This document shows, in pieces, positions 1,913 through 45,941 of a stretch of DNA of 64,000 bases. Position 1 is the stretch's first letter. Each line of letters opens with the position of its first letter. This DNA is from Catenovulum maritimum (GTDB lineage: Bacteria > Pseudomonadota > Gammaproteobacteria > Enterobacterales > Alteromonadaceae). Made by a program: the position numbers and the translations under genes. Location: positions 62,001 to 126,000 of the forward strand of contig NZ_KQ130484.1 of NCBI RefSeq assembly GCF_001050375.1, read 5' to 3'. A model generated the notes under the pieces. The model did no database searches and was not told where the DNA came from. It was given only the letters and a program-made list of their open reading frames with translations.

Positions 1913-4441
1913 TCAATCTTTATTACGCTTTGTAAAACGAATCAGCACTAAAGGTAACAGCAAAGTGAATAATACACCGCCACTACCACCGCTGGTTTTT
2001 ATCGTAATGTCTGGTTCTGCTTTAGCTGAAACATTCACTGTGACAGATGCACTGTCAGTGAGTTCGCCGTCAGTAATTTGATAGCTAAATGTTTCTGTAC
2101 CCGAATTAACTCCGGGCATAAAATTGATTTGATTATTAACTATGCTGATCTGCCCTAAACCTTGGTAGTCGGTACTTGAGATTGTTAACGATGAGCTGTC
2201 TATGTCAGCATCGTTACTTAATACATCAATGGTAACCGTTTCACCTTCTTCAACTCGGGCAAAATCAGAACTAGCTGTTGGTTTGTCATTTATGTTTTCA
2301 ACTGTAATGCTGGCATTAAATACTTCGCTGGTGCTGCTGCCGTCCGTCACTGTTATCGGCACACTTAGTTGACCAAAAAAATCGTCTAAAGGCGTAATCG
2401 TGTCACCATTCACTTGATAGTTATCACCGGCTAAAACTTTAAGTTGAAATTGATTACTATCTTGATCTGCTATGGTAAATTGCGACAAGCTAAAAGTGAA
2501 GGCATCTTCTTCTAAAGTCGATAGGGCTTGTTGAGCTGTTATTTCTGGCGGCTGGTTTATGGCTTGTTCATTTATGGTGAAAAAACTAGGAGACAGATTG
2601 AAAAATATATTGTCGTGACAAGCCACCATTATTTTCCCCAAGCTAGTTGTTAAATTAGGTAAGTTCACTTGTGCTGAACCTGAGTTAGCTTGCTGTGTCG
2701 CTATGTTTGTAAAGCTATCAGTACCATCTGTTGAAATAGATATATCGACACTACTACAGATTGATCCTGTGCCTTCTACGTCCCATTCAATCTGTACTAA
2801 GTTACCACCCATGAAAACGCTTGAGTCGTCAGGTTTCGTTACGGTAAACGGACCAAATGCAGAATTCACACTGATAGTGGTTGTATCAATATTAACACCA
2901 CCAACTTGGTCTCGAACCACAAAGTTAAAATTTAGCTCTCTGGTATTGGTTGCTAGTATTTCAGCTGGGGTGCTCCGGCTAAATATTAAATCATTTATAT
3001 CTGGTATATATCTAATTCCTGTGTCTTTGGGTAACCAGTTTCTAAAAATCGGTCCATCGCCATTATTTGCCCAATCAGATTTACTTGAGGTCTTTGTACC
3101 TAAATCGAATTGCTCCCATGAATAACTTAGGGAGTCGTTGTTTAAGTCTGTTGCTGTCCCAGTGAGCTTAAACGGTGTGCCTGCCGGAATCGTATAGTGA
3201 TTTCCTGCATTTGCGGTTGGTATCGCATTTGAGCTGGTTGACTGTGTACCGCAATTTCGGCCCAAGCCAGAGGTGATAAAACTACTCACTTGTTGGATAC
3301 TTTTACTGTGGAAAACCGCTAAGGATGAGTTTCTAACATTTTCTTCACCACATATACCAGCATATCCCATTATGGTAACGCCACTACCGATTTCATAGGC
3401 TGCAGAGTTGTTACGACTGGTTTCACAGTCTGATGCTGTGGCATTAAATGTATGGGTGGCGCCAAACTGGTGGGCAATTTCATGCGATACATAGTCTATG
3501 TTGAATGCGTCTCCGGTTGGTCTTCTTATGCCAGTAAGCCCTTTCGCTTTTGAGCTTCCGCAAACTGCTCCTACTTGGGCTAAACCACCACCTTCTGTCG
3601 TGAATAGATGACCTATGTCGTAATTATTTCTGCCAATTGCATTATCTATTTCTGTTTGTGCTATCGGTAGATCTGCGTCTGGATCATTATTTTCGAAAGG
3701 GTCAGTGTTTGTATCTTCAAAAATGACTAAGTCATTGTTTGCAACTATGCTGAGTCTAATTCCAAAATCTCGTTCAAATATTTCATTGACTCGATTGATG
3801 CTGGTCACTATGCCATTCGCAGCATTGCTTTTACTTCCATAAAAATTTGTGTATTGCCCTGTAGCCGCAACGGCAATTCGATAAGTGATAATAGAGCTTG
3901 TTTGGTTCGCACTACCTAGCGCACCTCTACGAGCTAGATTGGTTTCAATTGTTTGCTGAATCACTCTATCTTGAATGTCACCAGCCTGTTCGTATTGATA
4001 AACTTGGTAACCTGAGTTGTCTTTAATTGGATCTAGATATAGTTTTTTGCCATCTAGGATATAGACCGCATGAAGGCCATTTGGCCCTGTGTCAATTCGG
4101 GCTGTTTGATTCTCGTCATTTAACCTGTGGGCTTTAAAGCTTGCTATGTTTGGATATTTTTGCTGAAAATCTAATTCGTAGACAGGATCATAATGAGCTA
4201 AAAATTTTACGGTTTCACCCGTAAGGTCGGGCAACTCTAATATTACTTTTTCTGTTTGATTGGCTTTTGTTAGTGATAATAGCTTTTGTTGTAATTCATT
4301 TATCTGGCTATTTTGTAAATAAACGGCATTGGTGTTTTCTAACACAATACTGCTATTTTGTGTAGGCTTTGCTTGCAACCAGTTCCCAACCGCAACAAAC
4401 GAAACCCAATAACAGCTCAAAAGTAAGATAAGTTTATTCAT
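1913..4441 (-). CDS. secreted reprolysin-like metalloprotease with GlyGly-CTERM anchor
   Basis: This is a secreted zinc metalloprotease of the metzincin clan. The zinc site HEIAHQFGATH is complete (H320, E321, H324, H330 from the ATG at 4441), and the Met-turn TIMGYAG follows it. Residues 1-25 form a signal peptide, followed by a propeptide of about 150 residues, the catalytic domain (about 180-405), and Ig/cadherin-like domains, one carrying the NDKPTAS...GETVTIDVLSNDAD pattern. The C-terminus is a GGSGG stretch, a hydrophobic helix and a basic tail (RFTKRNKD). That is the GlyGly-CTERM signal, processed by rhombosortase in other Gammaproteobacteria. A TTG start 12 bases upstream is possible, but MNKLILLLS at the ATG is a better signal-peptide start. 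It probably degrades extracellular protein. Its stop lies about 60 bases before the tmRNA start on the same strand. Confidence 0.85.
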   Translation of the reverse strand: MNKLILLLSCYWVSFVAVGNWLQAKPTQNSSIVLENTNAVYLQNSQINELQQKLLSLTKANQTEKVILELPDLTGETVKFLAHYDPVYELDFQQKYPNIASFKAHRLNDENQTARIDTGPNGLHAVYILDGKKLYLDPIKDNSGYQVYQYEQAGDIQDRVIQQTIETNLARRGALGSANQTSSIITYRIAVAATGQYTNFYGSKSNAANGIVTSINRVNEIFERDFGIRLSIVANNDLVIFEDTNTDPFENNDPDADLPIAQTEIDNAIGRNNYDIGHLFTTEGGGLAQVGAVCGSSKAKGLTGIRRPTGDAFNIDYVSHEIAHQFGATHTFNATASDCETSRNNSAAYEIGSGVTIMGYAGICGEENVRNSSLAVFHSKSIQQVSSFITSGLGRNCGTQSTSSNAIPTANAGNHYTIPAGTPFKLTGTATDLNNDSLSYSWEQFDLGTKTSSKSDWANNGDGPIFRNWLPKDTGIRYIPDINDLIFSRSTPAEILATNTRELNFNFVVRDQVGGVNIDTTTISVNSAFGPFTVTKPDDSSVFMGGNLVQIEWDVEGTGSICSSVDISISTDGTDSFTNIATQQANSGSAQVNLPNLTTSLGKIMVACHDNIFFNLSPSFFTINEQAINQPPEITAQQALSTLEEDAFTFSLSQFTIADQDSNQFQLKVLAGDNYQVNGDTITPLDDFFGQLSVPITVTDGSSTSEVFNASITVENINDKPTASSDFARVEEGETVTIDVLSNDADIDSSSLTISSTDYQGLGQISIVNNQINFMPGVNSGTETFSYQITDGELTDSASVTVNVSAKAEPDITIKTSGGSGGVLFTLLLPLVLIRFTKRNKD

Positions 4442-4668
4442 AGTCGCCAGCAATTACGGATTTGGAATCTTATTAATATTAACTTAAGACGAGAATATTG
4501 CACTTTTGGTTGCACGTTTTGTGACTTAATATACGAATGCCCCCATCATTAGTTGTTTCAGTTATTCTACGTTTTGTTATTTTTAATCCAATTCGATTTT
4601 TACATTCAATATCTATTGTTTAGTTACTTTGCTAAAATGCGCGCTGATTTATTGGTTGTGGTGGTGTT

Positions 4669-6840
4669 ATGCAAGCTGAACGCATGCGTGCGGATAAAGA
4701 TTTATTCTCGTATCAAAAATATTGGGCAGAGTGTTTTGAACCTGCGCCTTTTTTACCTATGTCTCGTAAAGAAATGGATAAATTAGGCTGGGATAGCTGC
4801 GACATTATTATTGTAACTGGGGATGCTTATGTTGATCACCCTAGTTTTGGCATGGCTGTTATTGGTCGAATGCTCGAAGCTCAAGGTTTTCGAGTTGGTA
4901 TTATTTCTCAGCCTGATTGGACCAATAAAAATGATTTTATGAAGCTAGGCAAACCCAATTTATTTTTTGGTGTGACAGCTGGCAACATGGACTCTATGAT
5001 CAATCGTTATACGTCTGATCGAAAATTAAGACATGACGACGCCTATACTGCTGGTGATATCGGCGGAAAACGCCCAGACAGAGCCGTAACTGTATACACC
5101 CAAAGATGTAAAGAGGCTTTCAAGGTGCCTGTTGTGATAGGCGGTATTGAGGCGAGTTTACGTAGAATTGCCCATTACGATTATTGGTCCGATAAAGTTA
5201 GACGTTCTGTTTTATTTGATTCTAAAGCTGATTTGCTCATTTACGGTAATGCGGAGCGACCGTTAGCTGAAATTGCACATGGCTTTGCAGCGGGTAAAAC
5301 GGTTGCTGAAATGCAAGATATTCGCGGCACTGCTGTTTTACGTAAAGAAGCATTGCCTGGCTGGTATGGGGTTGATTCAACTCAATTAGATAAATTAGGT
5401 AAAATAGATCCTATACCGAATCCTTATGAGATGATTGATGAAGCAAGCTGCGATTCTAAAAAGGAAGAAGTAGAAGAAGTTAAAGCTGAAGTCGTTCAGA
5501 TTCAGCCCGCCAAAAACCGTCGCCCGTGGGAAATGACTTATGTTAATTTACCACCATACGATGTTGTGCGAGCTGAGAAAGTTCATTACGCTCATACATC
5601 TCGTATTTTACATCAAGAGACTAACCCAGGTTGTGCCCGAGCGCTAGCTCAGCGCCACGGTGATCGTATTGTTTGGGTTAACCCGCCAGCTTTTCCATTA
5701 GAAACGTCAGAGATGGATGCTGTGTTTGGCTTGCCTTACGCTCGTATTCCACATCCTGTTTATGGCAATCAAAAAATACCTGCATATGACATGATTAAAA
5801 CCTCGGTTAATATTATGCGAGGTTGTTTTGGCGGTTGTACTTTTTGCTCTATTACTGAGCATGAAGGGCGTATTATTCAAAGCCGTTCAGAAGATTCAAT
5901 TATTCGTGAAATTGAAGAAATACGAGACAAAGTGCCTGGCTTTACTGGGGTTATATCTGATTTAGGTGGCCCTACGGCTAATATGTATAAACTCAGGTGC
6001 AAACATCCTAAAGCTGAACAAACATGTCGACGCATGTCTTGTGTATGGCCTGATATTTGTGGTCATATGGATACAGATCACACGCCTACGATTAATTTAT
6101 ATCGAAGAGCTCGCAAAATTAAAGGCATTAAGAAGATTCTGATTGCCTCTGGTGTTCGTTACGATTTAGCGGTTAAAGACCCTATGTACGTTAAAGAATT
6201 AGCAGAGCATCATGTGGGCGGGTATTTAAAAATAGCGCCAGAACATACCGAAGAAGGCCCTTTAAACAAAATGATGAAACCAGGTATGGGGACATATTAT
6301 AAGTTTAAAGAGTTGTTTGATAAATACTCTCGCGAAGCAGGTAAAGAGCAATATTTGATACCTTACTTTATATCGTCGCATCCAGGTACGACAGATGAAG
6401 ATATGGTGAATTTAGCAATTTGGCTAAAGACCAATAAATTTAAGCTTGATCAGGTACAAAACTTTTATCCTTCACCTATGGCCAGTGCGACGACTATGTA
6501 TCATAGTGGCGCGAATCCATTACACAAAGTGAATCATAAAAGTGAGAAGGTATTTTCTCCAAAAGGGGATAAACAGCGCCGCTTACACAAAGCTTTGTTG
6601 CGATACCACGATCCTAAAGGCTGGCCACAAATTAGAGATGCATTAAAACAAATGGGTTTATCTAAATTGATAGGTAATGGTGCGAATCACCTGGTGCCAT
6701 TTGGCGACGATAAAAAAGGCAGCAAGCGAGCTAATACGAAAGGCTTTCAAAAAGGCGCGACTCGTTTTAGTAAAGACCAAACCTTTAATAAAGCGGCTAA
6801 GACTTCCTCTACCAAAACATATGCCAAAAAACGAAAGTAA
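4669..6840 (+). CDS. ygiQ: YgiQ family radical SAM protein
   Basis: This is a large radical SAM protein (723 residues) nearly collinear with E. coli YgiQ. The N-terminal half carries [19 protein letters not shown], and the radical SAM core has the iron-sulfur motif C386-x3-C390-x2-C393 in [12 protein letters not shown]. The reaction is not established for the family. The start is the ATG that gives [15 protein letters not shown], equivalent to the E. coli N-terminus, with GGTGGTG just upstream. The C-terminal 60 residues are rich in Lys, Ser and Thr and unstructured, which is common in this family. A strong terminator follows. An upstream overlapping frame beginning at 4553 is not coding. Confidence 0.93.
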
Positions 6841-6935: not shown

Positions 6936-8168
6936 TTATGTTCTTTCAGTCGCTATTTCAGCTAAGAAAGCATCATTTGATGAATTACCTGAAGGGTTTA
7001 ATGCCATAGCTAAACCATGTTGGTAAGCCGATTTTGCTTGGCTAGCCATGTTCTGTTGTTCATAAATCGCACCCAATAACGCATATTTTTTGGCGGATTT
7101 TTCTACTTTAATACTGGCTTCAATTGCTTGCTGCGCCAATTGCCAATCATAATTTTTGGCCGCACAAATCCCTAATGCAGTTAATAAGTTGTCGTTTTCA
7201 GGGTGTGCTTTAATTTGTTTTTCTAAGTAGCTAATTAACTTGTTAGGTTGTTGCAGTGGTAAGTTGTATAAACTAGCAATAACTTGCTCTGACACATCTG
7301 CCTTTAATATTTTAATTAAAGCTTTCTCTGCACTTTCGTGCTCAGCCGCGGCCACTAGTGAGGCTAGATAATAATTATCTGCGATTGGACTCGTTTTAAC
7401 CCATTTTTTGATTTGTTTATAAAGAGACTCTATCTGAGTTTTATCACGATTCTGACCGGCTTGCTCAAAAGCTGGCTTAAATGAGATGTAAACTAGAGTA
7501 TTAAATTGATTTAAGCTTAAATCTGAGTGCTTTCTTAATTGCGGTAGAAGCGCTCTAAGCTTATCTGCTGAATTTGCTTCCTGATAGACTTGCGCTAGTA
7601 AGTTAAGTACATGAGCATCTTTAGGATGCGCTTGGTGCAGTTCTTCACATAAGCTGATGGCTTTGTCTTGCTTTTCTTCTGTGACTAAGCTTTTTACCAT
7701 AGCCAGTTTTTTCTGCACTTCATCACCATGTGATTCAGCTTTTAACAATAGCTGGGCAACTTTTTCTGGCTGGTTTAAATTTTTATTCGCTTCCGCTGCA
7801 ACTAAGTAATGCGTTGATTCAATCGGGCTTTTGGTTGCATTTTTTAAGCTTAATTTTTCTGCAAGCGCAAAATCATGATTAAACAAAGCTTGTAGTGATT
7901 GTTGTAAGGTTAATAAACTTTTTTGCTTGGCCTTTTTTTCACGCCATTGGCTGAAGTTGCGCTTACTATTAAATATTAATCGCAACATGATTTGGCAGGC
8001 TTTTATCCCTATATATGCAATGAGCAATACAAAGAAAAAACCAAATAAGTTCATTTCCCACGTCCATCCTGAGACGGAAATTAAAACATAGCCTTTTTCT
8101 TCAGCTAGCATAGAACCGAAAGCTAGTAAGCAACAAAGTGCGAAAAATGCTAAAATGAATCTGATCAT
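6936..8168 (-). CDS. hemY: HemY, inner-membrane TPR protein of heme synthesis operon
   Basis: This is HemY of the hemCDXY operon type (410 residues, close to the E. coli length). Two N-terminal membrane segments (about 1-22 and 39-60) are followed by a cytoplasmic or periplasmic array of TPR-like helices. The family is thought to take part in late heme synthesis or assembly of heme enzymes; no catalytic activity is established and none can be read here. It lies 16 bases downstream of hemX and is the last gene of the operon. It is not the protoporphyrinogen oxidase that carries the same name in Gram-positive bacteria. Confidence 0.88.
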   Translation of the reverse strand: MIRFILAFFALCCLLAFGSMLAEEKGYVLISVSGWTWEMNLFGFFFVLLIAYIGIKACQIMLRLIFNSKRNFSQWREKKAKQKSLLTLQQSLQALFNHDFALAEKLSLKNATKSPIESTHYLVAAEANKNLNQPEKVAQLLLKAESHGDEVQKKLAMVKSLVTEEKQDKAISLCEELHQAHPKDAHVLNLLAQVYQEANSADKLRALLPQLRKHSDLSLNQFNTLVYISFKPAFEQAGQNRDKTQIESLYKQIKKWVKTSPIADNYYLASLVAAAEHESAEKALIKILKADVSEQVIASLYNLPLQQPNKLISYLEKQIKAHPENDNLLTALGICAAKNYDWQLAQQAIEASIKVEKSAKKYALLGAIYEQQNMASQAKSAYQHGLAMALNPSGNSSNDAFLAEIATERT

Positions 8169-8184
8169 TTTATCAGCCTAATCT

Positions 8185-9321
8185 TTATTCGTTTAAGTTA
8201 GTATCTGCATTCGAATTATTACTGATACTAACGAGTAATTTCTCTGCTTCAATTAATGAATTTATTTTTAATAAGTTGTAGTTTCGGTTTAGCTCTTGCT
8301 CGTGTAATCCGGCTAGTTGCACCAAAATATTTTTGATTGCAGGATCATCCTTTTGATAATAAAGCGTTATCCAATCTAGAGTTTGTTGAATGCCAACACG
8401 ATACACCTGTTGTTTTCTGTGAAGTGCCGCCCACTGAACCTGATTTAATTTACTAATTAGGTTTTGTCTGATGTTCGCTTCTTGTGCCGGCGTTAGCATA
8501 GCTTCTGCTGTTGCTTCTCGTTTTTTCGGTAAGAAAGACTCTAAAAAATCCTCAAATGAATTAGTCAAATTACTCATACTAGGTGTATCTGTTATTTCTT
8601 TCTGTGCAATTTCTTGTGTTAGTTTTGGCAGTTGAGATTCGTTTAGCGGCAAAAACATGACTTGGCGAATTAACTCTGTGATAGTGAAAAATATTCCTTC
8701 AATATCAGCCTCATTAATTGATTCAACCGTACCTATATCATCGGCAATAATTTGTTTTAACTGGAACCAGCTTGCTGAGCTAATATCGTTTGCCCTTGCT
8801 TGTGCAAGTCTTAATGTTGCTATTGTGCTTTGTTTGTCTTGTTCTATATAAAGCTTTCTAGATGCTAGCGTAATTAAATATTTTACGTCAATTAACACTG
8901 ATTCTTCAGTCGATGTTGATTTCTTTGACGAGATTTGGTCTAGCGCAATTTGTGTGTCTTGGTTACGTTTATCTATGTCGTCATTTAATTTTTGGCTTAA
9001 GGTGTCTAAACGACGAGTGATGTCATGATTGATAGCTTCTTGGCTATTTTCTACAGCATTTAATACTGCTGATTGTCTTTGGTCTAATAGGGCTTCTAAT
9101 TGAGTTTGTTGCCAATATAGCCAACCAGATAAACCAGCTGCGCAAGCTGCTATAAGTAGGGCGAATATGCCACTATAACTGATGCCACTTTCTGGTTTAT
9201 CTTCAACTTCAGGTTTAGCCTGAGCTTCAACCTTTGAATGTGGAATTGTGTTTTCAGATGTTGCTTCGACTCTTAGTTCAACAGGCGCGCTTATTTCTTC
9301 TTTTTTGTCTGTCATAGCCAT
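8185..9321 (-). CDS. hemX: HemX, membrane-anchored uroporphyrinogen-III C-methyltransferase-like protein
   Basis: HemX is the third gene of the hemCDXY operon. The protein is 378 residues with an acidic, Glu/Lys-rich N-terminal tail (1-48), one membrane helix (about 50-69), a coiled coil (about 75-125) and an all-helical C-terminal domain. Database entries often call it uroporphyrinogen-III methyltransferase, but no SAM-binding motif is visible, so the name should not be taken literally. Two ATG codons lie close together (MAMTDKK or MTDKK). The start at 9321 leaves two bases after the hemD stop, so the two genes are probably translationally coupled. Confidence 0.86.
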   Translation of the reverse strand: MAMTDKKEEISAPVELRVEATSENTIPHSKVEAQAKPEVEDKPESGISYSGIFALLIAACAAGLSGWLYWQQTQLEALLDQRQSAVLNAVENSQEAINHDITRRLDTLSQKLNDDIDKRNQDTQIALDQISSKKSTSTEESVLIDVKYLITLASRKLYIEQDKQSTIATLRLAQARANDISSASWFQLKQIIADDIGTVESINEADIEGIFFTITELIRQVMFLPLNESQLPKLTQEIAQKEITDTPSMSNLTNSFEDFLESFLPKKREATAEAMLTPAQEANIRQNLISKLNQVQWAALHRKQQVYRVGIQQTLDWITLYYQKDDPAIKNILVQLAGLHEQELNRNYNLLKINSLIEAEKLLVSISNNSNADTNLNE

Positions 9322-39707: not shown

Positions 39708-42449
39708 TTATCTTTTATGATGCTCATTAATTTTTAACAGAGTGACAATTTTATTTAAACAGGCTGTAGGGTTAACCACCCATAATCCGTAGCTGATGGG
39801 CAATACATTGATTTTAGCGCGTTTAAGTAATTTGTAAGTATTCAGCTCAAAATAATCAGACCATGGTCCTGGGTAGCCTATTAAATCAAGTGCTAAATAC
39901 TGGCCTTGATAACGGCACAATATATCGAGTTCGGTATTGGCCAGCATATATCCCGGCCACGTTTCAATGTCTAGTTTATTGAGTGCGGCTATTATTTCGG
40001 TTTGAAAGTGACCTAGTTGAGAGGCGACATGGTGTGTTGCGTTAAATTGATTAATGCTATTTAAATACTGCTTCAACAGGTTGCTTTCAGGCAGTTGCTG
40101 TTCATCTATCGACAAAAATAAAATTTGCTTTTGCTTAGCGCGAGTAATGGTTACATTAAATACATCGGGTTTGTTTAAATAGGCAGCCGCTCTTTTGGCT
40201 TGGTTATCAATCGCAAATGAGATCAACATAATATCGCGCTCTTCGCCTTGAAAGCCGAACGGGCTCGCTGCGCGTAATTTATGGTCATTGATCTGTTGTG
40301 GCGTAAATGCAGACTCGATCGCTTGTGCAATGAACTCAGCTTGATGTCTAAAAGGCGAGATAACGCCAATAGTGTGTTGGTGACCTGTGATTGAATCGTT
40401 GGCTATTTCCTCACGGATTGCATTTATAACCTGTTCAGTCTCAATTTGATTAACACCGGCTTTATTTCGTTCGCCCTCAACGCGTTGCACATGTAAAAAA
40501 CCGGCTCGTGTGCAAGGGCGATGCTGCATAATTTTTAGTTTGTTTTGATAAAAGTGTTGATTACTAAAATGGATCAGCTCAGGTTTGCTTCTAAAATGTT
40601 CATCTAAAAAAGCCAGTTGGTCGGTACTGCTCAACGTGCCTAATGTTAAGTCGAGTATCGAGTTGTCGCGATAACTAACAATAGCATGATGGCTTGTTGA
40701 GACCGCATTTTTAACCATGAGTTGCGACTCTTTGCGTTTAGCTAAAAATGAATAATGGCGCAGCTGTTTGGTATCGCCTACGATCAAGGCGCGCTTAGCG
40801 CGATATAAAGCCGGTAAACAGCTGGCTATATTACATTGCGTGGCTTCATCAATAATGACTAAGTCGAACATTTCTGTTTTTAAGGGTAATACACGGTAAA
40901 GGCTGTTTAAGTTAACTAACCAAATAGGAAATGCCGACAACAAGGCCGGATATTCGATGTTATCGAACAATTCAAACTGCCTTTTTGATGTACGGCTTCT
41001 AATTGCTTTATTAAAAGCCTGCAAAGAAGAGCGATGATTGTCGACTAAGGTTTTTAAATTTTTATTTTTCAGTGCGCTTAAATATTGGCTCGCGAGTGTT
41101 TCACGTTGCGCGTGTTGCTTGTTTATTGCGTCTAATGCGTGCCATTGGTCCACTAGTTTGTTTATGCGACGATGAGCAAAAGTTAAATAAAGTTTATAAA
41201 GCCAAGGTGACTGTCGCTGTGCTAGTTTTTTTAGTCGCAGGCCTCTTTTTATGGCTTGTTTGCAAAAACGTAAAAATTGAGACTCAAGCGTTTTTAGCTG
41301 TTTGTTGATCGACTTTAATTGCGCTTCACAGGCATCAGGTTGTTGCTTTAACGTATCGTTAAAATAACCCGAAAGTAAATCGGCTAAGTAGTTTTTAAAT
41401 TGCTTTAAAAATATTTTTTGCCCCGTACGAATAGACACGTCACTTAATGCAAAATTCTCATCTAGTTTTTGACCTATGACTTCTAATGCGGCATCGTTGT
41501 TTGCAACAATTAAAACTGACTCGCCCCGTGCCATATGCTCAGCGGCGATCGCAGCAATGGTATAACTTTTTCCGGTACCGGGTGGGCCCGATGCACACCC
41601 TAATGGCTCGTGTGCAGCAATTGAAATGAGTTTCTGCTGTGGTATAGACAGTAATCCTGGCAAATAATCATATTTTAATTTTTTTAGTGTGTTTATTGGC
41701 GGTTGGGGATTAATTAATTGGGCTAACGGTGCTGAAAATGATTGGCTTGTACTAATGGTTTCAAGCTCGTGTAATACGCCTCGACTACTGCTTGAACGTT
41801 CGATAAACACCAACATAGACACGGGGAGCAGTGATGCCACCTTTTTTTTGAGTGCCGTTTTTATACTATCTGCGTGTGAAAGTGTAGGGAAGTTAAGCAG
41901 CTCAAGTGTATCAATGTTTGTCTCGCTGTGCTTAAGTAGTGCAGTCCAAAATGTGGGCGAGCGTACATCGGCTTGATTCAACGCATTTACCACCTCTGGT
42001 TCGTTAGCTTGTTCTGCTAATAATATATCAACTAAGGCGCTATTGATTTCAGGTTCGTTTTGATCGATGGAGCAATAATAATAATCGTTATGGCCCCCAT
42101 TATTGGCTAGGTTATGCTCATCGTGTTTATGAGTCAGGCTTGCGTCATTAAAAATCAAAGGCGAAACGACCGATTTTATTTCGCCTTTGATTTCTATTTT
42201 TCCGACAAATAAAAAGCTTACATATAACAAGACACGTTCGCGTTGATAGATGTCTATCCGTTTGTGCATGGGTTCGGCAAAATCACGAGGGATCGGTAAT
42301 TGCGTTAAAAAACCACTGCCGAGATCGTCTTGCCCTGAGAGTATAAATCTGTCTTCAGCTTTTAGCTTATTCAAGTGCCATAAATTTAAATCGGCGCTGT
42401 CTTCTTTGTAACAATCACGGTAATAAGAAAACATATTTTGTTGTTTCAA
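39708..42449 (-). CDS. SF1 UPF1/DNA2-type helicase with C-terminal restriction-endonuclease-like domain
   Basis: This 913-residue superfamily 1 helicase has a Q-type motif near 271, Walker A GPPGTGKS (288-295), Walker B DLVIIDEAT (529-537), motif III GDTKQL, motif IV-V FQGEERDIMLIS and motif VI NVTITRAK (765-772). An insertion of about 180 mostly helical residues (360-520) splits the first motor domain, as in COG1112/DNA2-like enzymes. Residues 815-905 resemble the Vsr/MTES_1575-like nuclease fold found at the end of many such helicases. However, the usual (I/V)E-x-DG element reads ALDLIG, so catalysis is doubtful. It starts 51 bases after nrtR on the same strand. Role unknown; helicases of this type often belong to defence systems. 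Confidence 0.82.
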   Translation of the reverse strand: MKQQNMFSYYRDCYKEDSADLNLWHLNKLKAEDRFILSGQDDLGSGFLTQLPIPRDFAEPMHKRIDIYQRERVLLYVSFLFVGKIEIKGEIKSVVSPLIFNDASLTHKHDEHNLANNGGHNDYYYCSIDQNEPEINSALVDILLAEQANEPEVVNALNQADVRSPTFWTALLKHSETNIDTLELLNFPTLSHADSIKTALKKKVASLLPVSMLVFIERSSSSRGVLHELETISTSQSFSAPLAQLINPQPPINTLKKLKYDYLPGLLSIPQQKLISIAAHEPLGCASGPPGTGKSYTIAAIAAEHMARGESVLIVANNDAALEVIGQKLDENFALSDVSIRTGQKIFLKQFKNYLADLLSGYFNDTLKQQPDACEAQLKSINKQLKTLESQFLRFCKQAIKRGLRLKKLAQRQSPWLYKLYLTFAHRRINKLVDQWHALDAINKQHAQRETLASQYLSALKNKNLKTLVDNHRSSLQAFNKAIRSRTSKRQFELFDNIEYPALLSAFPIWLVNLNSLYRVLPLKTEMFDLVIIDEATQCNIASCLPALYRAKRALIVGDTKQLRHYSFLAKRKESQLMVKNAVSTSHHAIVSYRDNSILDLTLGTLSSTDQLAFLDEHFRSKPELIHFSNQHFYQNKLKIMQHRPCTRAGFLHVQRVEGERNKAGVNQIETEQVINAIREEIANDSITGHQHTIGVISPFRHQAEFIAQAIESAFTPQQINDHKLRAASPFGFQGEERDIMLISFAIDNQAKRAAAYLNKPDVFNVTITRAKQKQILFLSIDEQQLPESNLLKQYLNSINQFNATHHVASQLGHFQTEIIAALNKLDIETWPGYMLANTELDILCRYQGQYLALDLIGYPGPWSDYFELNTYKLLKRAKINVLPISYGLWVVNPTACLNKIVTLLKINEHHKR

Positions 42450-42500: not shown

Positions 42501-43199
42501 TCAAATAGATAGGTTACGCTCAAAATTGACGATATCAACACCCGGTTTTATTTTATAAACTTGTGCTAACCGGCCACCAGATTTGACTTTTTTATCAATG
42601 GTTTCAAACATATCTGAAGCCTCAATACGCCGAATGAGGGTTTTACGCTGTATGGTTTTTTCAATAATGGCTTCAATTACCTGCTTGAATTGTCCGATGG
42701 TAAAACACGGTGGTAAGCAATAAACCGGCGTCATTGAATACAAGGCTTTTTGTTGTAAACGTGTTTTAGCTTGTTGGATGATGTAGGCATGATCAAACGC
42801 AATCGACAGTGTGTTTAAGCTATTCACCTCAATCCATTTAACATCATCTACGGTTTCGATATGGGTTGATACGGCTTGCTCGGGTACTAACGCAAAATAG
42901 ACTAAAGTGACACTAAAACCTCTTGGATCACGCTCGTGACCCGAGTAGCTTTCTAATTGCTCAAGGTAGAGAGGGCTGACATTTGTTTTTTCCTTTAATT
43001 TTCGTAATGCGGTTTGGTCAGTCGATGTGTCTTTATTAATATCAACAAAACCACCGGGTAAACCCCAATGGTCGATAAAGGGTTGGTTGGCTCGTTTAAC
43101 CAGTAATACATTAAGTGCATTATTTTTGATAGTAAATAACACACTATCAACGGTAAAAAGTGGGTTTTGGTAGTCGTTGATATTATACGGTGTGGTCAT
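42501..43199 (-). CDS. nrtR: NrtR-type Nudix-related transcriptional regulator of NAD metabolism
   Basis: NrtR is a repressor of NAD synthesis or salvage genes that senses ADP-ribose or NAD-related ligands. The N-terminal Nudix fold (about 10-145) has GLPGGFVD, but the catalytic Nudix box is degraded (ALRKLKEKTNV in place of REUxEExGU), which is the hallmark of NrtR and means no hydrolase activity. The C-terminal winged helix (about 160-225) has RKTLIRRIEAS and a basic wing. A matching operator-like repeat lies 38 bases before its start and two more before the divergent prs-like gene. It leads the operon that contains the helicase. Confidence 0.9.
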   Translation of the reverse strand: MTTPYNINDYQNPLFTVDSVLFTIKNNALNVLLVKRANQPFIDHWGLPGGFVDINKDTSTDQTALRKLKEKTNVSPLYLEQLESYSGHERDPRGFSVTLVYFALVPEQAVSTHIETVDDVKWIEVNSLNTLSIAFDHAYIIQQAKTRLQQKALYSMTPVYCLPPCFTIGQFKQVIEAIIEKTIQRKTLIRRIEASDMFETIDKKVKSGGRLAQVYKIKPGVDIVNFERNLSI

Positions 43200-43236: not shown

Positions 43237-43251
43237 ATGTCTATACGACAC
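43237..43251. promoter_or_regulatory. candidate NrtR operator 1 (nrtR side)
   Basis: ATGTCTATACGACAC has the inverted repeat TGTC-N5-GACA, the same geometry as the two sites next to the prs-like gene. It lies 38 bases upstream of the nrtR start codon and suggests autoregulation. Confidence 0.6.
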
Positions 43252-43322: not shown

Positions 43323-43337
43323 GTGTCTTAGTGACAC
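43323..43337. promoter_or_regulatory. candidate NrtR operator 2
   Basis: GTGTCTTAGTGACAC is an inverted repeat GTGTC-N5-GACAC lying 6 bases before the -35 box of the prs-like promoter. It is part of a 27-base near-identical direct repeat (43312-43338 and 43368-43394, one difference). Confidence 0.75.
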
Positions 43338-43343
43338 TTTTTC

Positions 43344-43372
43344 TTGACGTTCAAAAAAATGATTGCTAAAGT
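43344..43372 (+). promoter_or_regulatory. promoter of the prs-nadV-like operon
   Basis: TTGACG (43344-43349) and TAAAGT (43367-43372) with a 17-base spacer make a plausible sigma-70 promoter. Operator 2 lies just upstream and operator 3 covers the likely transcription start, so a repressor bound at both would shut it. Confidence 0.6.
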
Positions 43373-43378
43373 TTAATT

Positions 43379-43393
43379 GTGTCTTAGGGACAC
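43379..43393. promoter_or_regulatory. candidate NrtR operator 3
   Basis: GTGTCTTAGGGACAC repeats operator 2 with one base changed. It begins 6 bases after the -10 box and ends 22 bases before the ATG of the prs-like gene. Confidence 0.75.
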
Positions 43394-43415: not shown

Positions 43416-44291
43416 ATGCGTGTATATAGCCATCAAAGTAATCAAATAAAAAGTTTATTAAATTTTGAATGTTTCACATTTTCGGGCGGTGAGGAGCATA
43501 TTCGTTTTGATGCAACTCAGTTGAACTCAATATTGGATAATTCGAATTGCGTTATTAAATTTGAAATTGTTGAACGATTAACTTGCTCAGCTAAATTGAT
43601 TCGATTAATGCTGGCGGTTGATGCATTAAAGCGTTTAACACATAACAATGTACCTATTGAATTGGTTATTCCGTATTTTCCCTATGCGCGTCAAGATCGA
43701 GTGTGTGTTGAAGGTGAAGCGTTAGGGGCTGCGGTGATGGCAACATTTATTAATCAATTAAATTTTGCCAAAGTCACCATTTGGGACGCACACAGTGATG
43801 TAACCCCCGCGTTAATTAATAATGTGGTGAATGTACCGCAAGTTACTTTGTTAAAACAAAATGCACAATTGAGCGCGTTATTAAGCGCAGGCGAGTTGAC
43901 TTTGATTTCGCCAGATGCTGGCGCGACTAAAAAAACCATGAAGATTGCCGAGTCATTTAACGGTGACCCCGACGTTGTTCAAGCACAAAAAGTACGCAAT
44001 TTAAAAACGGGTGAAATTGACAAAACCGAAATTTTAGGTGATGTAAAAGGTAAAAAAGTACTCATAGCCGATGATATTTGCGATGGCGGGCGAACCTTTA
44101 TTGAACTTGCAAAAGTGTTGAAAAATCAGGGTGCCTCTACGGTTTCATTGTTTATTACGCATGGCATATTTTCAAAAGGTTTAGGGGTATTTGAAGGATT
44201 AATTGATCACATTTACACCACTGACTCATTTAAAGCCAAGAATGAATTTGTTGTTGATTCAGCGATTAACTTAACCATTATTGAATTATAG
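43416..44291 (+). CDS. ribose-phosphate pyrophosphokinase-like protein (PRPP or ADPR-PP synthetase)
   Basis: This protein of the Prs fold has 291 residues, slightly shorter than housekeeping Prs (about 315). It has IPYFPYARQDR (85-95), WDAHSD (123-128, where Prs has DLHADQ), SPDAGA (165-170) and the PRPP loop LIADDICDGGRT (216-227). In standard Prs the flexible loop and the segment after DLH differ markedly, so this is not the housekeeping enzyme. It sits 9 bases before a nicotinamide phosphoribosyltransferase-like gene. Two roles fit: making PRPP for NMN synthesis, or, as in the phage NARP1 pathway, pyrophosphorylating ADP-ribose. Ribosome binding site AAAAGGGG precedes the ATG. NrtR control is strongly suggested by two operators. 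Confidence 0.8.
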   Translation: MRVYSHQSNQIKSLLNFECFTFSGGEEHIRFDATQLNSILDNSNCVIKFEIVERLTCSAKLIRLMLAVDALKRLTHNNVPIELVIPYFPYARQDRVCVEGEALGAAVMATFINQLNFAKVTIWDAHSDVTPALINNVVNVPQVTLLKQNAQLSALLSAGELTLISPDAGATKKTMKIAESFNGDPDVVQAQKVRNLKTGEIDKTEILGDVKGKKVLIADDICDGGRTFIELAKVLKNQGASTVSLFITHGIFSKGLGVFEGLIDHIYTTDSFKAKNEFVVDSAINLTIIEL

Positions 44292-44300
44292 GAGAAGGAC

Positions 44301-45941
44301 ATGACTATTATCGCCGCAAGTATGCAAAAAGATGTTTATAAAGAGTTTCATAGCCGCGCTTATCACCCTGATGTGAGTGAAGTTTATGCTAATTTTACTT
44401 CACGTAGTGGTAAGTTAAGTAATGTTGAAAATAACGATAAAGTGGCTTTTGTCGGATTACAGTATTTTATTAAGAGTTATTTACAAGACGAATGGGCTGC
44501 TTTTTTTAAGCAAGACAAAGCGAGTGCTGTCGCTAACCATAAACGCATAATGAGTGCCATGCTGGGTTATTCGGTAGATGTAAAATATTTAGAAGATTTG
44601 CATGATTTAGGCTATTTGCCACTTAAAATTAAAGCTTTACCAGAAGGAACGCTTGTACCTTATTTAGTCCCCCCTATGACGGTGGTCAACACCAAGGCGG
44701 GCTTTCAATGGTTAACAAATATGATAGAAACGGTATTAAGCTGCGAAAACTGGCCTATTCAAACCAGTACCACAACGTCGGTTGCTTATTTAAAAGTGTT
44801 CAAAGAGTTTGCCGCTAAAACCGGATTACCAAGTGATTTTGTACCATTTCAAGGGCATGACTTCAGTTTTAGAGGCATGTTTGGTAAGCAGGCTGCTGCG
44901 ATGAGTGGTTTTGGCCATTTAGCTTCGGGGTTAGTCGGTACCGATACTATTCCAGCCGTTTTATTTGCTGAGCAGTATTACGGGGCTAATGTCGAGAATG
45001 AATTGGTTGGGTGCTCTGTAGATGCTACCGAGCATTCAGTAACGTGCTCTTGGATCCTGGAAGGTGAAATTGAGTTTTTTAAATATTTAATGGAAACCCA
45101 ATCACCTAAAGGTATCTTGAGTGTTGTGTCAGATACATGGGATTTTTGGACGCTAGTCACTGATTATTTACCGCAGCTAAAAGAAACGATTATGCAGCGC
45201 GAAGGCACTTTGGTTATTCGACCTGATTCAGGCGACCCAGTGAAAATTTTAACCGGTTATACCTTAGATAATACAACGGATTTTAGCCATAATAAATCGC
45301 TGTTTCAAAATCAAATAAGTGCAGCAGAGTATGCTCGAGTTAACGGTTTTGAAGCCTATCGCTGGCAGGGGCAATATTTTGCTATAGATGCGGAATCATT
45401 AAACAGCGGCGGTAAAATTGAAAGTATTGAAGCGCACACTGTATTAATGCCGTGCGAAGTAAAGGGATTAATTGAATGTCTATGGGATATTTTTGGCGGA
45501 ACCATAACCGATAAAGGTTTTAAATTATTGGATGAGCACATCGGTGCTATTTATGGCGATGCGATCACGTTGCAACGTCAACGTCAAATATTGCAACGTT
45601 TAATGGATAAAGGCTTTGCATCAAAAGTCGTGCTGGGCATTGGTTCATATAGCTATCAATATGTGACTCGTGACACACATGGTTCGGCTGTTAAAGCCAC
45701 CAGTGTGGTAAAAAATAATCAACGCTTAGCTATTTTTAAAGATCCTAAAACCGACACTAAGAAAAAGTCAGCTAAAGGTTTACTTAAAATAGAGCGTGTT
45801 AACGGAGAGTTAACGTTATTTGATAACGTGAGCGAGCAAGAGGAGCAGGCGGGATTGTTAGAAGTCGTATTTGAAAATGGCCAGTTACTTAAAGAGACTA
45901 CGTTAGCAGACATCCGAGCGTTGATTGCTCAGCAAATTTGA
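44301..45941 (+). CDS. nadV: nicotinamide phosphoribosyltransferase-like protein (NadV / Namat)
   Basis: This enzyme belongs to the NAMPT/NadV family, which joins nicotinamide to PRPP to give NMN, or in phage NARP1 joins nicotinamide to ADPR-pyrophosphate to give NAD directly. The length is 546 residues. Catalytic positions equivalent to human NAMPT are D215 (GTDTIP), H245 (ATEHSV) and R307 (IRPDSGDP). The nicotinamide pocket is HDFSFRG (186-192, F188 and R191). Human NAMPT has GYRGVSS where this protein has SFRGMFG. GGAGAAGG lies 5 bases before the ATG. It is coupled to the prs-like gene. No nicotinamide-nucleotide adenylyltransferase follows, which matters for choosing between the two roles. 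Confidence 0.85.
   Translation: MTIIAASMQKDVYKEFHSRAYHPDVSEVYANFTSRSGKLSNVENNDKVAFVGLQYFIKSYLQDEWAAFFKQDKASAVANHKRIMSAMLGYSVDVKYLEDLHDLGYLPLKIKALPEGTLVPYLVPPMTVVNTKAGFQWLTNMIETVLSCENWPIQTSTTTSVAYLKVFKEFAAKTGLPSDFVPFQGHDFSFRGMFGKQAAAMSGFGHLASGLVGTDTIPAVLFAEQYYGANVENELVGCSVDATEHSVTCSWILEGEIEFFKYLMETQSPKGILSVVSDTWDFWTLVTDYLPQLKETIMQREGTLVIRPDSGDPVKILTGYTLDNTTDFSHNKSLFQNQISAAEYARVNGFEAYRWQGQYFAIDAESLNSGGKIESIEAHTVLMPCEVKGLIECLWDIFGGTITDKGFKLLDEHIGAIYGDAITLQRQRQILQRLMDKGFASKVVLGIGSYSYQYVTRDTHGSAVKATSVVKNNQRLAIFKDPKTDTKKKSAKGLLKIERVNGELTLFDNVSEQEEQAGLLEVVFENGQLLKETTLADIRALIAQQI

Follow-up and report, generated by a model that had tools for sequence, protein, structure and literature searches.

The adps-namat gene pair of Catenovulum maritimum is best read as a chromosomal NARP1 module, probably under a dedicated ADP-ribose-sensing NrtR repressor

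NARP1 is said to have been discovered by Osterman in 2024. The older reading of prs-nadV gene pairs is ordinary nicotinamide salvage, prs and nadV were reportedly listed among the targets of NrtR by Rodionov in 2008, and the enzyme paired with NadV at the Shewanella oneidensis NrtR locus is known as a PRPP synthetase. The Paenibacillus foliorum NARP1 is active in vitro, in vivo and against SPARSA (PMC12774641), the route described for S. oneidensis runs through NadV and then PncC (PMC6128845), its 'NadV' led to higher NMN levels in E. coli (PMC6095924) and its NrtR (SoNrtR) is reported to be ADP-ribose (ADPR)-responsive and released from DNA by this compound (PMC4666351). The enzymes alone are not new, bacterial NARP1 being already published; the name NrtR has 0 occurrences in PMC12774641, and our literature search returned no description of the regulation of bacterial NARP1 by NrtR or ADP-ribose.

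The window, a stretch of 64,000 nt of the Catenovulum maritimum contig NZ_KQ130484.1 to whose positions all coordinates refer (Table 1), had been predicted to contain a Prs-like gene coupled to a NAMPT-like gene, with no NMN adenylyltransferase beside them. ORF and Pfam analyses returned both genes in place and separated by a gap of 9 bp, no adjacent gene encodes an NMN adenylyltransferase, and nrtR lies divergent from the pair. PMC12774641 takes as bacterial Namat those with adps no more than 10 genes away; in the window the two genes are adjacent. The two enzyme families, the gene order and the clamp-helix motif are all as in phage NARP1 (SPbetaL1 and others), whereas the window pair is part of a bacterial genome and comes with a dedicated NrtR and palindromes, NrtR being matched in 1 of 80 viral loci (the best 80 of 515). 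P. foliorum likewise has a bacterial Adps-Namat pair, with identities to the SPbetaL1 pair of 53.6% and 71.9% (PMC12774641) against 34% and 48% for the window proteins. In a Shewanella genome, a protein that matches the crystallised SoNrtR chain (PDB 3gz5/3gz6/3gz8) with 100% identity across 236 residues is encoded directly upstream of Adps-Namat, in the order NrtR, palindrome (the same GTGTC-N5-GACAC), Adps and Namat; SoNrtR is 44% identical to window NrtR, and its locus is same-strand whereas that of the window is divergent. The Novosphingobium plasmid NadM-NadV operon (L021) resembles the window in that a nicotinamide-salvage operon faces a divergent gene with a NUDIX domain, but it encodes an NMN adenylyltransferase together with a NadV that lacks the clamp.

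Table 1. Features of the locus, in positions of the window.
Feature	Position	Strand	Basis
SF1 helicase-like protein (AAA_11/AAA_12), 913 aa	39708..42449	-	domain search
NrtR, 232 aa, Nudix sensor domain and winged-helix DNA-binding domain	42501..43199	-	domain search
ATGTC-TATAC-GACAC, one-mismatch copy near nrtR start, putative autoregulatory operator	43237..43251	.	
Palindrome GTGTC-TTAGT-GACAC, putative NrtR operator	43323..43337	.	
Sigma-70-like promoter candidate TTGACG-17-TAAAGT, weak, between the two exact palindromes	43344..43372	+	
Palindrome GTGTC-TTAGG-GACAC, putative operator of NrtR, ending 22 bp before the Adps ATG	43379..43393	.	
Adps-like ADP-ribose pyrophosphokinase, predicted (PRPP-synthetase fold), 291 aa	43416..44291	+	Pfam, tree, AlphaFold model
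WDAHSD motif, residues 123-128 of Adps	43782..43799	+	sequence readout
Namat-like nicotinamide ADP-ribose transferase, predicted (NAMPT fold), 546 aa	44301..45941	+	Pfam, PDB matches, column readout, tree
Selectivity-clamp helix GSYSYQYVTRD, residues 448-458 of Namat	45642..45674	+	column readout, consensus of PMC12774641

The first protein of the pair is a divergent member of the PRPP-synthetase family (Pfam Pribosyltran_N/Pribosyltran) with PHROG 619 as its best PHROG match, and it passes the cut-off of TIGR01251, the broad Prs subfamily of NCBIfam (149 against 113 bits). The AlphaFold model (pLDDT 94.7) confirmed the Prs fold but does not discriminate between ADPR and ribose-5-phosphate. 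The original prediction had WDAHSD replacing DLHADQ, of which the first motif is present and the second had to be amended, as the separate housekeeping Prs encoded in the genome has DLHAEQ. The stretch HSDVTPALINN, starting inside WDAHSD, is common to window Adps and SPbetaL1 Adps, and its position is occupied by HAEQIQGFF in the genome's own Prs, to which the window protein is 28% identical as against 34% to SPbetaL1 Adps. The core is intact: DDIC.GG.TF and ARQDR do not vary among 47 Adps rows, that of the window among them. In the tree, which was built without 20 near-identical bacterial rows and in which the phage rows sit on long branches, one branch (support 100/98) splits 66 Adps-type rows (the window, 60 bacterial loci and 5 phage/plasmid rows) from 29 PRPP synthetases, and the 291-aa protein groups with phage and bacterial Adps, including the experimentally used SPbetaL1 Adps. 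Without the DLHA-Q motif and apart from the 29 Prs, the first gene is not of the housekeeping type, as had been claimed.

The second protein belongs to the NAMPT/NadV family (Pfam) and passes the NCBIfam cut-off of a nicotinate phosphoribosyltransferase model; its best PDB matches, 9w5x/9w5w, are the SPbetaL1 protein. D215, H245 and R307 are present with exactly the numbering first given. Of the NMN-site residues listed in PMC12774641 (SPbetaL1 numbering), a column readout showed that F189, S190, R192, D215, A242, R306, D308, G360, D361, A362, G390, S391 and the catalytic His are kept. The same source gives GSX-Phi-X-Phi-X-Phi-TRD as the consensus of the clamp helix, an adenine clamp that marks Namat, and the aromatics at positions 3 and 7 are both present in the window protein. 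Across the best 80 of at least 547 bacterial relatives, Y or F occupies both positions in 67 loci, position 7 is His in 3 and Gly in 1, the helix is NadV-type in 7 and it was unread in 2. The clamp loop is described in PMC12774641 as Arg, or as Lys/Tyr with a residue stacking on adenine behind it; the window has Lys38-Leu39, where the Lys is present and the Leu is incapable of pi-stacking, and the 27 loci L034-L060 show KL in 24, RL in 2 and KN in 1. In a tree obtained by a quick search, with SH-aLRT as its sole support measure and without L061 and the 20 near-identical bacterial rows omitted from the Adps tree, the window protein groups with Namat, together with the phage ICP1 and Slickus01 rows, and outside the NadV controls (RB16, D483, Novosphingobium), which have GGGLLQ.. 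at the clamp helix and are placed elsewhere.

Clustering with PRPP synthetase and NadV had been named as the sequence part of a refuting outcome, and both proteins fall outside those groups. Their clustering with Adps and Namat and the presence of the clamp helix support the suggested NARP1-type module; a Prs/NadV identity was rejected on trees and motifs, and the pair is best read, on sequence grounds, as a chromosomal NARP1.

Window NrtR, whose Nudix box is degenerate when read by eye, consists of Nudix and NrtR_WHD domains (Pfam) and lies below the NCBIfam cut-off for the NtrR equivalog (195 of 400 bits). A direct repeat of 27 bp contains, in its copies, the two exact palindromes, and the extended form TGTGTC-N5-GACAC occurs twice genome-wide, both times in the nrtR-adps interval. 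The regulatory intervals, 31,160 bp in total, hold 36 exact GTGTC-N5-GACAC sites, compared with 1 in the 754,950 bp outside them; the sites were found in 25 of the 78 NrtR-bearing bacterial loci (best 80 of at least 547), the remainder of which must use other operators, and in none of the 80 viral loci (best 80 of 515). Promoter-like matches in the region amounted to 10, not above shuffles (mean 13.5).

An NrtR-type Nudix repressor was found, using window NrtR as query, at 78 of 80 bacterial Adps-Namat loci (the best 80 of at least 547 Adps relatives, a sample that, like the best 80 of 515 viral loci, leans towards the window's kin; L114 and L115, on the contigs of L044 and L055, stand outside the counts). 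A model built from these matches returned 78 of the same 80, which is no independent count as it was trained on them, whereas its single viral match is independent. Within this bacterial sample a Namat-type clamp helix could be read in 71 loci, and NrtR accompanies 70 of them. The association is not wholly specific, because seven Bacteroidota loci pairing an Adps-like protein with a NadV-type helix also carry NrtR-like proteins, which there and in L073 have an intact Nudix box (8/78). Genes handling ADP-ribose (NADAR, KptA, macro, ADP-ribosylglycohydrolase) occur in at least 10 of the best 80 of at least 547 bacterial loci. The neighbour set comprised 83 proteins hand-picked from the first 150 of 230 listed (from 54 loci, after omission of 11 near-duplicates and 15 loci of Achromobacter) plus 8 already flagged by family, without which the counts were NADAR 4, NT5C 4, ADP_ribosyl_GH 4, KptA 3 and Macro 3. 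The control of the pair by NrtR, suggested at the outset, is thus made more credible by the palindromes and the regular association.

The helicase gene is the next after nrtR on the same strand, with a 51-bp gap, and is possibly co-transcribed with it. Homologues come after nrtR in L039 and L043 (split there), one gene beyond it in L034 and near it in L038; PADLOC matches of the helicase are partial and do not place it in a named system.

As a whole, we think it likely that the locus is a self-switching NARP1 operon of a bacterium, controlled by an NrtR repressor that is dedicated to it and senses ADP-ribose. NrtR bound to the palindromes between the divergent genes would keep the operon off; cleavage of NAD by NADases, ADP-ribosyltransferases or their reversal enzymes would raise ADP-ribose and nicotinamide, and ADP-ribose would release NrtR, so that the operon probably switches itself on once NAD is destroyed. 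A search of the genome for a TIR-type NADase as a partner returned none, which speaks against this reading. Adps would then convert ADP-ribose and ATP to ADP-ribose pyrophosphate (ADPR-PP) and Namat would join ADPR-PP and nicotinamide to give NAD, a two-step route that bypasses PRPP, NMN and an adenylyltransferase. ADP-ribose would be both inducer and substrate, and the operon would therefore shut off after its consumption. We infer recovery from NAD depletion as the role.

It is conceivable, though we think it doubtful, that Namat takes PRPP as well as ADPR-PP and serves as a general nicotinamide sink, with the ADP-ribose arm used mainly under stress, a reading compatible with the preferred one and overlapping it in probability. 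Namat itself is able to make NMN from PRPP (PMC12774641), the reported NMN increase with SoNadV points the same way, and the window clamp loop is weaker than that of SPbetaL1; against this, the regular partner is Adps and not Prs, since in 77 of 78 NrtR-bearing loci (best 80 of at least 547) Namat starts behind Adps at a distance within 500 bp, a count partly built in as the loci were fetched by Adps.

Ordinary nicotinamide salvage, in which a second PRPP synthetase feeds NadV, NMN passes to PncC, NadD and NadE, and NrtR senses NAD turnover, appears improbable. The Pfam and NCBIfam labels are still Prs and NadV-type, and both the NadV-PncC route described for S. oneidensis and the NMN made by SoNadV in E. 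coli agree with it. PF01467 matched four places in the draft genome (CoaD, NadD, RibF and a 483-aa protein that we took for HldE from its sequence), this search returning no NadM/NadR-type enzyme; the missing NMN adenylyltransferase is compatible with ordinary salvage because the genome has a gene of the NMN-deamidase family (PncC/CinA), and NMN could be processed further through the products of the PncC-family gene and NadD. There is also no PncB in the genome, since window Namat is the only PF04095 place. However, the window proteins lie outside the Prs and NadV clusters, the clamp helix is present, the housekeeping Prs makes an extra PRPP source unneeded, and related loci have ADP-ribose-processing neighbours. 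Recent capture of a phage anti-defence module without bacterial function is very unlikely: the patchy distribution (a NAMPT-like match in 0 of 7 congeners) and the grouping of Namat with phage rows are outweighed by NrtR and the palindromes as bacterial features in the best-80 samples, by the nearest Adps relatives among the matches listed, on genome contigs of Pseudoalteromonas and Colwellia, and by the domain searches, which found no phage character in the three flanking genes scanned, with nadD on the same 273-kb contig.

The structural paper of 2026 leaves open why bacteria carry NARP1 (PMC12774641). With somewhat better than even confidence, we propose that NARP1 in bacteria is as a rule a regulon that recycles ADP-ribose and switches itself, with NrtR as dedicated sensor, that the textbook S. 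oneidensis NrtR operon is NARP1, that phages hold the enzymes without the switch and that the sensor of the window clade may also control the helicase. If NrtR is the regular partner and ADP-ribose serves as inducer as well as substrate, the bacterial role would be directly testable in the laboratory organism S. oneidensis, for whose NrtR crystal structures exist. In several phyla, prs-nadV pairs beside NrtR would need a correction of their PRPP/NMN annotation, and a sequence rule (clamp helix, Adps partner and NrtR) would separate NAD reconstitution from nicotinamide salvage. Should the sensor control the helicase as well, ADP-ribose set free by NAD-cleaving immunity would trigger repair of the NAD pool together with a second response, the helicase arm.

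Residue readout of the window confirmed the motifs named in the original prediction, namely WDAHSD in the first enzyme (residues 123-128) and D215, H245 and R307 in the NAMPT-like protein, and the two ORFs are separated by a gap of 9 bp.

Features of the window and of other fetched loci (L numbers)
Locus	Feature	Position	Strand	Remark
Window	SF1 helicase-like gene	39708-42449	-	Directly after nrtR, same strand
Window	NrtR	42501-43199	-	Nudix and NrtR_WHD domains
Window	Adps-like enzyme, 291 aa	43416-44291	+	PRPP-synthetase domains
Window	Namat-like enzyme, 546 aa	44301-45941	+	NAMPT/NAPRTase family
Window	Insertion in Namat	45258-45455		Residues about 320-385
L019	H. ducreyi pNAD1 nadV	2456-3943
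L171	Viral contig with NrtR beside Adps-Namat	4092-4835
L037	Gene run			Namat-NADAR-KptA-macro
L044	Gene run			Namat-NADAR-KptA-DUF4291
L044	DUF4291 protein	8647-9285
L046	Gene run			Namat-DUF4291-NADAR-ADP-ribosylglycohydrolase-NADAR
L046	DUF4291 protein	7532-8137
L048	Gene run			Namat-ADP-ribosylglycohydrolase-KptA
L067	macro gene			Adps on one side, Namat on other
L068, L073, L097, L109, L112	Further ADP-ribose-handling genes

The Adps-like protein scored above the cut-off of the broad NCBIfam Prs subfamily TIGR01251 (149 vs 113 bits), far below the Prs equivalog cut-offs, and at 293 bits against the phage family phrog_619; a separate housekeeping Prs was found elsewhere in the genome (406 bits). 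A tree of 95 rows was built from 29 Prs and 66 Adps-type sequences, the latter comprising the window protein, 60 bacterial loci, four phages and one B. subtilis plasmid. A single branch parted the two sets (support 100/98; 100% of 200 bootstrap trees), with the order of phage rows inside Adps unsure because several lie on long branches. The window protein fell on the Adps side, bearing out the proposal that it is not of the housekeeping type. Its raw identity was 34% to the Adps of phage SPbetaL1 and 28% to its own genome's Prs, and the stretch HSDVTPALINN is identical in the SPbetaL1 enzyme, the Prs reading HAEQIQGFFDV there. An AlphaFold model built from 47 aligned Adps (pLDDT 94.7) predicted a fold of the Prs type, with a TM of 0.76 to the E. 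coli enzyme, which speaks to fold and not to substrate.

The top PDB matches of the Namat-like protein were 9w5x/9w5w, whose printed stretch is 100% identical to the SPbetaL1 gene product. Using the residue roles given in its structure paper (PMC12774641) and SPbetaL1 numbering, we found the NMN-site residues F189, S190, R192, D215, A242, R306, D308, G360, D361, A362, G390 and S391 kept, together with the catalytic His. The clamp helix, GSYSYQYVTRD, agrees with the Namat consensus in that same paper, while the NadV controls read GGGLLQEVTRD, GGGLLQQSDRD and GGGLLQQVNRD. The clamp loop, SGKLSN, has Lys in the third place but Leu where the adenine-stacking residue is expected, and this KL is common to 24 of the 27 loci L034-L060. 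In the Namat tree the 11 rows lacking the aromatic helix (NadV controls and Bacteroidota rows) formed one side of a branch with an SH-aLRT of 99, and the window protein fell opposite. Relative to SPbetaL1 Namat it carries an insertion of about 60 residues; inserts occur at the matching place in phages Slickus01, HJ01 and adrianh, and none in ICP1. The NMN-forming NadV of H. ducreyi pNAD1 (L019) and L026 nested beside SPbetaL1 Namat. It has the clamp region GAQTYQRNTRD, with both clamp aromatics gone, and no Adps partner annotated within the fetched stretch; by sequence it looks like a Namat reverted to NadV.

The window NrtR is 44% identical (103/232) to S. oneidensis NrtR (SoNrtR) and scored 195 bits against the NCBIfam NtrR equivalog, below the cut-off of 400. 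Its Nudix box, read by eye, is degenerate as in SoNrtR, and the protein should therefore sense rather than cleave. PMC4666351 states for SoNrtR that ADP-ribose suppresses DNA binding and that structures were solved for the apo form and with ADPR or 27-bp DNA. The nrtR-Adps intergenic region holds a 27-bp direct repeat with GTGTC-N5-GACAC inside each copy, and a one-mismatch copy of the palindrome lies near the nrtR start. The whole genome (4.55 Mb) contains two TGTGTC-N5-GACAC sites, each of them at this locus (reversed control pattern, once). We infer that the palindromes are bound by NrtR.

Among the best 80 of at least 547 bacterial Adps loci, from Pseudomonadota, Bacteroidota, Verrucomicrobiota, Cyanobacteriota, Planctomycetota and Bdellovibrionota, NrtR was present in 78, both with the window NrtR alone as query and with a model built from those matches, whose winged-helix part was reached; none was found in L061 and L108. 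For 72 of the 78, at most 500 bp separate it from the operon; over all 78 it is divergent in 27, upstream on the same strand in 28 and downstream in 23. The regulatory intervals, 31,160 bp in all, held 36 exact GTGTC-N5-GACAC sites vs one in 754,950 bp elsewhere; the palindrome is carried by 25 of these 78 loci, the remainder being without it. Among the best 80 of 515 viral loci, the same model found NrtR in one, though 79 carry a Namat-like ORF; none of the 80 has the palindrome. The Adps of that sole viral contig is 50% identical to the window's; the contig may be bacterial or hybrid because the locus runs to its end. Seven Bacteroidota loci (L075, L079, L089, L091, L093, L094 and L096) are exceptions, in which an Adps-like partner goes with a clamp helix of NadV type and with an NrtR-like protein whose Nudix box is intact; they perhaps follow a different substrate logic. 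In L073 the Nudix box is intact, yet a Namat-type helix lies alongside.

At least 10 of the 80 bacterial loci fetched carry genes for handling ADP-ribose, which suggests that their theme is ADP-ribose and not PRPP. NADAR numbered 11 in 60 whole relative genomes, including a copy adjoining Namat in genome G008, but reached seven copies, in six loci, within the 0.81 Mb of fetched loci; none was found in the window genome, and no ADP-ribose-handling gene was seen adjoining the window pair. The DUF4291 proteins sit among such genes, a hint that this domain has a role linked to ADP-ribose. Two genes form a cassette upstream of Adps in L034, L035, L040, L041 and L070; one encodes an SPFH/Band 7 protein, the other a product of 308-311 aa weakly similar to NAD kinase. 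In L034, L035, L040 and L041 this cassette separates NrtR from Adps, and it is common to Colwellia/Pseudoalteromonas and a distant MAG. The window helicase has homologues of 892-893 aa beside or close to nrtR in two Pseudoalteromonas loci (L038, L039), and L034 and L043 hold partial or split copies. The window helicase is partially similar to the defence proteins PDC-S37, Mokosh, Hhe and ProA, and its conserved C-terminal tail looks nuclease-like by eye, as a candidate only.

The Adps-Namat pair is rare and patchy. A NAMPT-like match was found in none of seven congeners and in 15 of 369 sampled genomes of the class; of these, the window's own genome, G008 and G235 combine the Namat-type helix with Adps, one match is of H. 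ducreyi type and 11 are of NadV type.

One protein encoded in a genome of Shewanella, the genus of the L062 organism, matches the SoNrtR chain with 100% identity across 236 residues; the genome is presumably that of S. oneidensis. Directly 3' of the gene for this protein lie a 301-aa Adps (FDPHSDVTAALLD) and a 490-aa Namat, and the NrtR-Adps interval holds the palindrome, so that the structurally solved, ADP-ribose-responsive repressor is encoded beside a NARP1-type pair. The Namat clamp helix is GSFTYQHVTRD, with His at position 7, and the loop carries Arg (by eye). The S. oneidensis literature takes the enzyme as a NadV feeding PncC, and reports that overexpression of nadV and pncC, single or combined, barely changed voltage output (PMC6128845); the lack of an Adps step would fit this result, though the result does not demonstrate it. 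SoNadV increased NMN in E. coli according to another study (PMC6095924), and PRPP use is therefore possible.

Bacterial NARP1 itself was previously known, and the activity, induction and role of the window pair are predicted. A literature search, beyond whose reach some key papers lay, found no paper that deals with NrtR and also with NARP1, Namat or Adps. As far as that search shows, the new part is the pairing of NARP1 with an ADP-ribose-sensing repressor, palindromes and ADP-ribose-processing neighbours.
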